A stretch of DNA of 64,000 nucleotides from contig VZSF01010126.1 of NCBI GenBank assembly GCA_013398295.1, forward strand, positions 124,398 to 188,397. Direction: 5' to 3'. Source of the DNA: Chionis minor (Eukaryota; Chordata; Aves; Charadriiformes; Chionididae). The notes below the pieces were generated by a model. That model was not told the origin of the DNA. It did not search any database and saw nothing but the letters and a program-made list of their open reading frames with translations. Position numbers and translations under genes: made by a program. This document shows, piece by piece, positions 169 through 42,692 of the stretch (the stretch's first letter is position 1; each line of letters opens with the position of its first letter).

Positions 169-22486
<22,318 letters not shown>

Positions 22487-37600: not shown

Positions 37601-40600
37601 TCTCTAAATTGTTCTAGCCGTGCGTTGCATTTTAAATCACCTGAGCAAAGCCAGCAGTAACACTGCTGTGGAGTTAATAATTGTGGAGGAGCAATGGGTG
37701 CTTGATATTGTCCTCCTCAGAAAACAAAAATTTGAGGGTCTCTGCAAAGCAGAGGTAATCTTTACCCCTTACTGTTTGTTCTCTTCTCCACTGTTTTATC
37801 TCAGCAGTATTTCATTTCAGGAAGAGATCCAGAATCACCTGTACAAAGGCATGTGACTTTTTTTTTTTTTTCCTGGGCTTCTGGTAGCATTCACAGTTGG
37901 ATGAGCCGCCCCTCTGCCAGCGGCAGCTCTCTCAAACTGACCTTAAAGAGGTGATCCAAGGGTAACTGTATTACCTGCTCTCATAGCTTAGACACCTGGT
38001 AGTTCTTTTAAATTTATGCACATTATCTCTAGATTGATTGTCAGGTTTAGTAAAAAATCAAGCTGGGTCTTTTAAAGAAAAAGACCTGTGTAAAGGTGTT
38101 GCAACAAACTCTAAAGCAGCTTTAACTTTTCTGGACCTTTTCCTAATATGACAGAATGAAAGGGTGAAACATAATCTGTACGCCAAACAGATTTATCCAT
38201 ACAACTTTTCTCTTGCAGATCTTCATTCAAGGGCCTCATACAACAGCAGTTTTGTAGTGATGTAGGACTGTTGACTTTTTCTCACTGTGAGGTTTCAATC
38301 ACATAAAACTAAGTGTGGTAGTAGTAAATTAATACTTCTTTTTAGAAGAATAGCTCTCCTCATACCTTGGGGGAAATAATAAAACTCAGGTTTTAGTTGA
38401 TGACTATTAAATGATCCAAACATAACAGGAAGCATATATTAAGTAACTGTCTCAGTAAATTTAATAGCAAATAAGTTTTTACACAGGGGAGAAGACAAGA
38501 CATCCAAAGTTTAGTGAATGAAGAGGTGGAAAATCAGTGGAGAAATGCTACAGTTAGATTATTAGGGTGGCATTGAAAAAAGATACAACACTACAGATTA
38601 TAATCCGTACTGAAAATCATTGTTTTAACTGGGAAATATCTACCACAGATTTTCGTTTTCAAGCATTGTTAGGTCTTACTATATAATTCCAAAAGTTCAA
38701 AGTAAAGGACAGGGGTGTACTGAGAGCAGCAGAAGAATTAGATGGAAATTACCAGATTGTATATAAAATAATAAATATCCTGCAAAGATTGCATTTCACT
38801 TGATGCATGGTGTATTAAAACATCATAAAACACAAAAATCTAACTTTAGAGAGTTAGAAATGTTAGCCCCTGTAATTGAGTATACATTGAAGTAACTTGT
38901 TATATATCCAGGATAAATGATAGAAATAATTCAAGTTGAAGCTCTTTGATGAAAAGGGGATGGGGTTTTACTATAACCTCATACATGAGTTAGGTAAGAA
39001 TACTAATGCAGGTGTAATTCTGGAGATGGATTAGCCGTCCTTAAAATTTGATTTTCAGCAACCTTTTTATGCAAATGGTGAAACAAAGTCATAACTGTAT
39101 AAAATACTGTCTCACTGTAGCACAAAAAGAAATTGATGGCTGCAAAATGATACAGATGTTTTTGTTGAGGCAGTGATAATTTGTGCAGAAACTCTGCAAA
39201 ACGTGCTTTTTAGTATTTTGAAAAAGCTTTTCTTCGTCTTCATAAATATATAAAAAAAGTGTTCTGGACCAAATTCACCCATGGCATAAGTGAGCATATC
39301 ACTATTCTTCTCTGTGACATGTAGCTGTGACTTTAATCTTGTGATACTGAGACGTGCCCCTAATTTACAAGTCATTTCCATATTCCTGCCTTTCATCTCC
39401 TGGGATTTTATTTCCGTATTCAAAACAACTGCAGATTCCCAGCACTTTCAGTGGAGTCCGAGTGGAGCAGAATGGCTGTCATTTACTTAATATACTCATT
39501 TAAAGATGCATGCAACTTATTTAAAGAAAAAAAAAGAAAATAAAAGAAAATCTGCATTCTGCAGATGTGATTGATGGGTCTGGATGGGTGGGATGCAGTG
39601 GAAGAGAGATCGGGCAATGCAAGTGTGTGGGCAGACTGAGAAGATGAAGGAGATGACCTGGGAGGAGGCACGAGAAGGCACAAGAAATAGACGGTGCAGA
39701 TGAGACCAAAGGTGACAGGAGAGGGTGGCTAAAATACCCACCCGCCTGGTGCTGGGGATTTTGACACGATGGATGGAGCTTCCCTCCTACAGAGAGTAGA
39801 GGACTGTTATTTGCAGAATCCCTTTCGTAGTAACTATTGAAGTTGAACTGTTTACTTAAATACTGAAGTTAGGAGGATTCCTGTAAAAATAAGCACTTGC
39901 AATAGGCAATGTCTAAAAACACATATATATTTATTACAGCAGCATGATTCCTGGAGGCTTGACTTGTGGTTTGTAAGTGCTTAGGATGGGCTGTACTGAG
40001 GCTTTCCCTTGGAGTAGGAGGACAGAGGCTTTTTGATAATCTCTGTCCGCGTCAGTCCTTGCATAGGAAATCATATTTGGCTTAATTGGCTGTTTATTCT
40101 AGATGCCCACATATGTTACTTTATGTTTGACTTCTGACCCTCTCCTTTCCCATGTAATCATACTCCTGGCCTTTCTCAGTTCTTGGCTTTATTGTCCCAG
40201 ATCTGTAACTGGCTCGACCTTAGTTTTGCTCAAACTACAATTTCTTTTTGTGAAGTTTAGCCAGAGAGGAGATAGCACAGCACCATTTTGTAGCTTCAGA
40301 TTTTGGGGCTTATCTGAGGTGAGCAAAAGCAGGTGGAGAAATGCATGAGCCTGTGCCCAGCCGGCAGCTGGAACCAGCTGAGGCCCAGAGATGCTTGGCC
40401 AGTGCAAGGTATTCCTTCTTGCCTCAGCAGTTACAGTCCAGCTATCCAGGGAATTCAGCTGCTGGTTCACCCAGTTTTAATTTGCAGTTCTTTGAAAACC
40501 TCAAAGTGAGCATTATGTGCTTGTAGGAACAGCCAGACCTACACACTCCTCTGCAGATGTCTTGGCAGAGCTTTCCTCAATATGTTGTTGCAGGAAAAAT

Positions 40601-41076
40601 TGACCACAGCTTGTGGTGCAGTGCTTCTCCTCCTGCTTTCCTATTTGAGTGAAGTCTTTGCAAAATGTGAGGTTTTTTGTGTTAAAATTGTAACAAAACC
40701 TGTGGTGTGCAGGTTTAAGGTCCTAGCTTATTTCTTCTGCTCTTTCTCCTGCCCCAGAAACAAAACCAAAAATAAGGAGGAAAGGTCAAATGTGTAAGAA
40801 TGGAGAAGGCAGAAAAGGTGGAAATAAATTTCTTAATATGAGGAAAGGAAAGAGATGAAGAGAAAAAAACCAAAAAGTGTAATTTCCGTATCAGGTATGG
40901 AAACCACACAAAGTGACTGCAGCTGTTTGCTGCAGCGGAATAAACTATTTCTGTTATAACCACTGCCTATTCCATTAGAGTGTGTACTTTTATTTTCAGC
41001 ATAAAGTATTTGGGTTTGTGATTATTTTGAATGTAACTACACTTGTTGCATTAATCTGTATCCCTTGTTCTTCAAG
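34660..41076. other. Non-coding stretch between palindrome and PIR relics
   Basis: Includes T-runs near 37858-37871 and a short polypurine/A-run at 39526-39550. Apart from the weak PIR candidate at 38912-38993 nothing gene-like was recognised. Confidence 0.6.
38912..38993 (+). pseudogene. Possible PIR relic exon (LFDEFKGG segment)
   Basis: About 2 kb before the AHEDFCGH relic and on the same strand, 38942-38974 reads LFDE-KG-GF-like (ctctttgatgaaaaggggat and following), to be compared with human pirin LLFDEFKGGRPGGF. A cag lies at 38909-38911 and a good donor, TTAG|GTAAGA, at 38993/38994, where the pirin exon ending near HRGFET would stop. The His-Pro-His iron ligands are not recognisable. 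The similarity is weak and rests mainly on position and order. Confidence 0.35.
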
Positions 41077-41156
41077 GTAACTTAACTATTAGTGGTTTCA
41101 CAGCTTATAAAGATTTCTGTGGACATGTGACTAAACTGAAGCCAACCTATTTACAG
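41077..41156 (+). pseudogene. PIR: Pirin (PIR) relic exon, AHEDFCGH segment
   Basis: 41103-41156 translates to AYKDFCGHVTKLKPTYLQ, aligned without gaps to human pirin AHEDFCGHTGKMNPGDLQ (10 of 18 identical). It lies about 700 bp before the next relic, in pirin order and on the same strand. The probable acceptor is ttcttcaag at 41068-41076. The part upstream of the match is about 4 nt shorter than expected, so the frame is broken. The donor that should follow CAG reads TTAAAG, so GT is lost. The match is short but the context makes chance unlikely. Confidence 0.75.
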
Positions 41157-41862
41157 TTAAAGGAAGCTCGACAGCATAGAGTACTCAATATTTAGGAGAC
41201 TCCATCTGCCTTATGTGAATTGATGAAGACTTTGCAGCCTAAAAATATTGCATGTCTTTTTTACTGCATCTCTCTTCTATGCTGCAACCAGCTGTTGAAG
41301 TTAGCCAAAGTATTCTACTCTGCCCTCAGAAATGTAGCATGTTTACATTCCAGAAGAATTCTCAACATGCCATGCTTTACTGAGAATCTTTAGATTTGAG
41401 CTGCTTAAATCTCCACCAGCAATGAATTGTCATGCTTTCTTGATCTGCTAAAGCTGCTTAACATTTTAGTGATAATTCTCTATGCCACATTTCAACACAG
41501 AAAAATCAACAGGTAACAGCTATGAAGTGATTGTTTACCTAACTCAACTTCAAATCAGGTGAAAGCCTCAGCCATAGCAGTTTGTCCCATAAAATGCAAT
41601 TCTAGTATTTATTTTTCTCTATACATGCTTTCTCCATCCATGCATGATCTGAAGGAACATAGTATGTTTATGATGCCTTTTACACTGTGTGTTTTCCATC
41701 TATGGCACCACACTGTACTTTGTCTTTTAATATTTTCCTGTAGGTATTTCTTACACTGGAAAATGTTTTGTGGCATTGCTCCGCTCCTATGGCCTTGTGA
41801 TCTAAAATTCAGTGGCTGACTTCTGGTTTTTGTGTGCCAACAGTTATCCTTTTCTTCTTTAC

Positions 41863-42059
41863 TGGATGAGACAGACAAGTCTTCATGCAGACATCTCTTT
41901 CTCAGAGAAAATAGCCCATGGCCTGCAAATCAATCAATCCAAGCAGATCAGAGAAAATGGTAAGGCCTCACTACCAAGAAATGAAAACAAAGCAATGCCA
42001 AAACCCTGCAAGGATGGCGTAATCCCATCCATCATTTCAAGAGAGATGCTGAGGCAAAG
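41863..42059 (+). pseudogene. PIR: Pirin (PIR) relic exon, core cupin segment
   Basis: Pirin is a nuclear iron-binding cupin that modulates NF-kB. Three segments appear in order but not in one frame. 41863-41928 gives WMRQTS-LHADISFSEKIAHGLQ against human WMTAGRGILHAEM and CSEEPAHGLQ. 41948-41986 gives SEKMVRPHYQEMK in another frame (human SEKMVEPQYQELK). 41998-42059 returns to the first frame with PKPCKDGVI and IIS. A roughly 2-nt and a 1-nt deletion shift and then restore the frame, and a 6-nt deletion removes two residues near the start. The acceptor AG is changed to AC before TGG; the donor AAAG|GTAAAT survives. The iron ligands His101 and Glu103 of human pirin correspond to His and Asp in LHAD. 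The open frame through this stretch is accidental. Orientation (head-to-head with BMX) matches the mammalian locus. Confidence 0.88.
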
Positions 42060-42692
42060 GTAAATTCTTTGGAACACTGGGACAGCTGGTAGGTACATGC
42101 AAGGGATTTGCGTGCTGTAGAGCTTTATTTGTCATACATCTGTAGACAAGTTGAAACGACTCTTTTCTCAGTTTTCTTATATTTTAAGACTGAAGATTCT
42201 CTGAATTTCATAAAAAAATTTTGAGGGTTGCTGTTATGTGGTAAATGTTCCATCTTGTCATTTCTAATTAGCAACATATATTTCTTGCAATGCCTCATTT
42301 TATTACAATCATTCCTTCATATGGAATACTATAAATCATATTTATGGCATGGTTCTCAGCTGAGAATGAAAAAAAAATCTTACGTATACATATTGTTAGG
42401 GGAAGAATATCATCAATGTTTCTTTGCAAAGGGCTTGTCTGTACAACTGACTTGCATGAATAGTTTGAATCCACTCTGACTTGTTGTCTGGAGAGGGGTT
42501 AGTTGATGTCAGATTGCAGATCCTTAAAAAATAATATTTTAAGGAGGATAGCAGTGTTTCCTTGGAACAACTCATCCTCTTGGGGGAGTCCAGTCTTGCT
42601 GACATAGGGTCTTTTCAATACTGCTTGGGATGGGATGGGCTTAACAGTTCAAGGGAAGAGCAGTAGGAACAATCAAGTCAAGGTAGGTGGTG

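Follow-up and report, generated by a model that had tools for sequence, protein, structure and literature searches.

The ancestral pirin gene (PIR) of Chionis minor is, with a probability of about 0.92, a unitary pseudogene that has decayed at its original site, with BMX on one side and VEGFD on the other, and a gene of wide conservation appears to have been lost from the lineage of this bird. Four relic pieces, designated A to D, are collinear with pirin residues 71–290 on one strand and span 41.5 kb. Over the relics, 77 of 141 aligned residues (55%) are identical to human pirin, and these 141 residues are interrupted by three stops and five frameshifts; one splice donor and one splice acceptor are also lost. 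Judged from its sequence, the locus fits a unitary pseudogene, as a first-pass annotation had proposed: it has homology to pirin, disabling changes and an ancestral address with relics separated as by introns, and no other pirin match above chance was found in the 1.146-Gb assembly.

Queries and regions searched

The window is the whole 64,000-nucleotide stretch of DNA that was analysed, and all positions are given on its scale. The region scanned was the window plus 20 kb before it and about 100 kb after it, joined into a stretch of 183.6 kb. The query was human pirin, in a sequence identical to PDB 1j1l_A over 290/290 residues. Matches were located by tblastn and by a frameshift-tolerant alignment; the laxer frameshift scoring used initially produced long spurious matches and was dropped for a stricter one, to which the scores below refer unless stated otherwise.

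Genomic context

Human BMX matched the window by tblastn in 14 pieces in order, at 67–88% identity save for one piece at 38% that runs into an intron; residues 148–295 of BMX had no tblastn match at E values up to 1. Pfam SH2 and tyrosine kinase domains were found in two of the four frames scanned. The VEGFD and PIGA pieces are 78–98% identical to human. The gene order here is BMX (−), PIR relics (+), VEGFD (+), PIGA (+), and the human order is likewise BMX, PIR, VEGFD, PIGA, so that the neighbours of the human PIR locus are the same. The head-to-head arrangement of PIR and BMX described by the first-pass annotation is thus confirmed, BMX lying on the minus strand and the relics on the plus strand (Table 1). 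Window GC content is 0.36–0.45 in 2-kb steps, i.e. ordinary, which indicates that the ancestral PIR locus is not of the hard-to-sequence kind. Rfam gave no matches within the window.

Within BMX, 2389 bp are repeated exactly in tandem (15582–17970 and 17972–20360), the two copies separated by a single N at 17971. Almost certainly, two overlapping ends were joined here in the assembly without being merged.

Table 1. Features of the PIR locus and its neighbours, in window coordinates (positions above 64,000 lie beyond the window)
Feature	Position	Strand	Remarks
BMX	1–22417	−	First matched coding exon 22417–22292; kinase end runs past the window
Relic exon A of PIR	41077–41156	+	80 nt; human residues ~65–91; aligned part, residues 71–91, at 41094–41156
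Splice donor of relic A, lost	41157–41158	+	TT in place of the expected GT; read directly from the sequence
Splice acceptor of relic B, lost	41861–41862	+	AC for the expected AG, after a pyrimidine tract; read directly
Relic exon B of PIR	41863–42059	+	Human residues ~92–160; lacks 6 nt and has two frameshifting losses
Retained donor-position GT 3' of relic B	42060–42061	+	Read directly from the sequence
Relic C of PIR	72390–72467	+	Residues 205–231; score 68; tblastn E 3.9 (183.6 kb)
Relic D of PIR, C-terminal exon	82469–82571	+	Residues 256–290; score 75; tblastn E 0.098 (183.6 kb)
VEGFD	105375–108000	+	A 117-residue piece of the human protein was the only query
PIGA	126392–133178	+	Matched in pieces

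Relic exons of PIR

Both relic exons that the first-pass annotation had placed with confidence were recovered. Relic B was matched by tblastn of human pirin in the window (residues 90–157 at 41857–42051, E 3.9e-6) and in the 183.6-kb stretch (E 1.1e-5), and a second frame of it, at 41807–42013 (tblastn E 0.028), contains SEKMVRPHYQEMK. In the frameshift-tolerant alignment it scored 144, with 32 of 58 residues identical over residues 100–157 (41881–42051). Two nucleotides are lost near 41931 and one near 41995, so that the frame is left and then restored, and the spacing from WM to LHA, six residues in human pirin, is four in relic B, which amounts to a deletion of 6 nt. These changes, and the destroyed acceptor, are those that had been claimed from the letters of the window.

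Relic A was matched by tblastn at 41055–41156, with an E value of 0.004 when the window was searched and of 0.012 for the 183.6-kb stretch. It scored 61 in the frameshift-tolerant alignment, with 11 of 21 residues identical over residues 71–91. A pyrimidine-rich stretch ending in AG, resembling a splice acceptor, lies just 5' of it, and its donor is lost as claimed.

Extension of the alignment beyond the window, which the first-pass annotation had suggested, added relics C and D in pirin order and strand. Relic C, which is bounded by AG and GT, contains one stop and two frameshifts. Relic D contains two stops and one frameshift, and CAG stands where the stop codon is expected. Successive relics lie 706 bp, 30 kb and 10 kb apart. 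The sequence TPLIHTKPGSVYVG at 70271–70312, some 2 kb 5' of relic C, forms a short match to human residues 191–204 in pirin order and strand; at a score of 37 vs. control maxima of 36–52, it was not counted as an exon.

A functional pirin would have an open frame with its metal ligands His56, His58, His101 and Glu103. The frame here is broken. The exon carrying residues 56 and 58 was not detected in the scanned sequence, and the stretch for residues 101–103 reads H-A-D in relic B, so that LHAD stands there in place of the human LHAE, in which Glu103 is an iron ligand.

Search of the whole assembly

The relic might be an old copy, the working PIR having moved to genomic sequence that is GC-rich or did not enter the assembly. 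The assembly (1,146,497,876 bases) is in 4057 contigs, and GC-rich sequence is known to go missing from bird assemblies, which leaves some room for such a move. Full-length pirin searched against the whole assembly at E values up to 10 matched relic B only (E 0.03). Two chance-level matches came from partial queries, one from residues 1–103 (E 4.7) and one, interrupted by four stops, from residues 144–290 (E 7.5). The same search for an intact PIR had been proposed from the window alone, and it returned relic B and these two chance-level matches only. As a control, the 117-residue piece of human VEGF-D was searched against the whole assembly and gave 19 matches, among them the two exons of the local gene, matches of 65% and 53% identity at another locus, and one of 36% identity at E 1.4e-6. 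Because this control reached relatives only 36% identical, the searches should have detected a working pirin if the assembly contained one, and no working PIR copy was found elsewhere within the assembly. The ordinary GC content of the window also speaks against the move, which we regard as improbable. Other decayed copies, or a copy in unassembled sequence, might escape, given that the genome search detected relic B only. A search of the assembly with the Pfam Pirin profile gave no candidates; it missed relic B too and so says little.

Less probable still is a processed pseudogene, or one that arose by duplication, in which case the true PIR would lie elsewhere. Beyond the possible missing sequence nothing speaks for it; the relics stand at the ancestral address with intron-like spacing (as above), which shows that they are not a retrocopy, and a second pirin locus above chance was not found in the assembly.

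As a separate observation, the assembly contains four beta-globin-like genes within ~18 kb of one contig (G000:C2268:88076-105699), with exon 2 at 80–85% identity to chicken beta-globin, which supports a bird as the source of the genome. A joined adult-type chain had 12 PDB matches at E values below 1e-80, presumably bird haemoglobins; in three alignments none was identical.

Control alignments

The four top plus-strand matches of pirin in the 183.6-kb stretch scored 144, 75, 68 and 61, and the next 48 (frameshift-tolerant alignment). In the same stretch, the maxima were 47, 62, 54 and 57 for four reversed sequences and 53 for the minus-strand search with pirin. Sixty shuffled pirins were aligned to the 83 kb separating BMX from VEGFD: a single shuffle reached 61 or more, once (score 64), and no shuffle did so twice. 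Relic B, at 144, is far above all controls, and on these alignment scores chance is excluded for it. Taken singly, relic A does no better than the best control (61 vs. 62), and relics C and D by their scores are likewise each near noise. Under the laxer frameshift scoring only relic B was separated, plus-strand scores being 164, then 97 and 90 for relics C and D; the controls reached 95–99 (none above 99) and the minus strand at most 109, neither of which relics C and D exceeded.

Chance similarity as the source of all the matches has a negligible probability: although a shuffled pirin reached 64 once, control maxima run from 47 to 62 and three of the relics are singly near noise, relic B lies far outside the controls, and no shuffle gave two matches of at least 61 vs. 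four collinear ones for pirin. Equally improbable is a working PIR disrupted by errors of sequencing or assembly, for which the exact tandem copy and the N at 17971 nearby can be cited. Such errors would not cut residue identity to 55% or hide several exons while BMX, VEGFD and PIGA stay readable, and the join artefact stops ~21 kb before relic A. The relics compare at 55% identity with 67–98% in the VEGFD, PIGA and BMX pieces (one run-on BMX piece at 38%).

In the expected intervals, nothing above controls was found for pirin residues 1–70, 158–204 and 232–255. Best scores there vs. control maxima were 30 vs. 37 for residues 1–36, 32 vs. 38 for residues 1–70, 37 vs. 52 for residues 158–206, 37 vs. 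39 for residues 176–206 and 30 vs. 33 for residues 230–257; in the 26 kb upstream, residues 31–70 reached 32 vs. control maxima of 33–38. A third relic exon, which the first-pass annotation had placed with reservation at 38912, did not hold up, as the best match in 38800–39400 (LFDE-KG) scored 23 vs. control maxima of 20–22.

Age of the decay

Neutral decay was simulated: 0.16, 0.20 and 0.25 substitutions per site left 71%, 66% and 60% identity, respectively. On the assumption that an intact bird pirin is 80–85% identical to the human protein, the relics retain ~64–68%, corresponding to ~0.18–0.21 substitutions per site. The three stops observed compare with 2.0–2.6 simulated at 0.16–0.20 substitutions per site. 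The neutral rate is 2–3 substitutions per site per billion years, and a crude estimate from this model would place the PIR decay some 60–105 million years ago; the estimate is drawn from the best-kept pieces, which are the only ones seen, and the assumed identity matters to it. This modelled age suggests that related birds may share the loss.

Interpretation

For a unitary pseudogene at this locus, the course of events would have been that PIR was released from selection and substitutions and small deletions then built up neutrally. As a consequence, pirin protein would no longer be made and the relics would be without function of their own; most likely they do nothing. Human pirin (PIR, PDB 1j1l; Pfam PF02678) is matched by the four relic pieces in order over residues 71–290; unlike it, the relics have stops and frameshifts, two of their splice sites are lost and several exons are undetectable. 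Unitary pseudogenes are known in primates, GULO and UOX among them, and there, as here, a gene has decayed at its ancestral address and no replacement has been found.

A limited literature search found no published report of avian pirin loss. The main text of Lovell 2014, taken by itself, mentions PIR, pirin, BMX and VEGFD zero times, and the lack of PIR may already be apparent from orthologue databases. In the passages seen of one source, pir is given as a neighbour of ace2 in ray-finned fishes and not in tetrapods (PMC6278350). In another, the KEAP1-NRF2 antioxidant system is described as altered in Neoaves, with zero mentions of PIR in the passages seen (PMC7234996). That the loss of PIR is tied to this altered system is speculation. 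The degree of decay fits an old loss, and PIR may have disappeared early in bird evolution and be absent from a whole major clade, perhaps from most birds, within the rewiring of avian NRF2; this wider reading is tentative, and we place it somewhat below even odds.

PIR is an iron-binding co-regulator of NF-kB and a target of NRF2, and the roles of pirin include ferroptosis. Pirins span bacteria and archaea to humans, by PDB matches and a profile search in which 8 of 14 control genomes had them, and the loss is moderately surprising since pirin is so widely conserved. With relics at a clear address, the loss could be dated across birds, and a bird without PIR would be a natural knockout for the role of pirin in NF-kB, NRF2 and ferroptosis biology.
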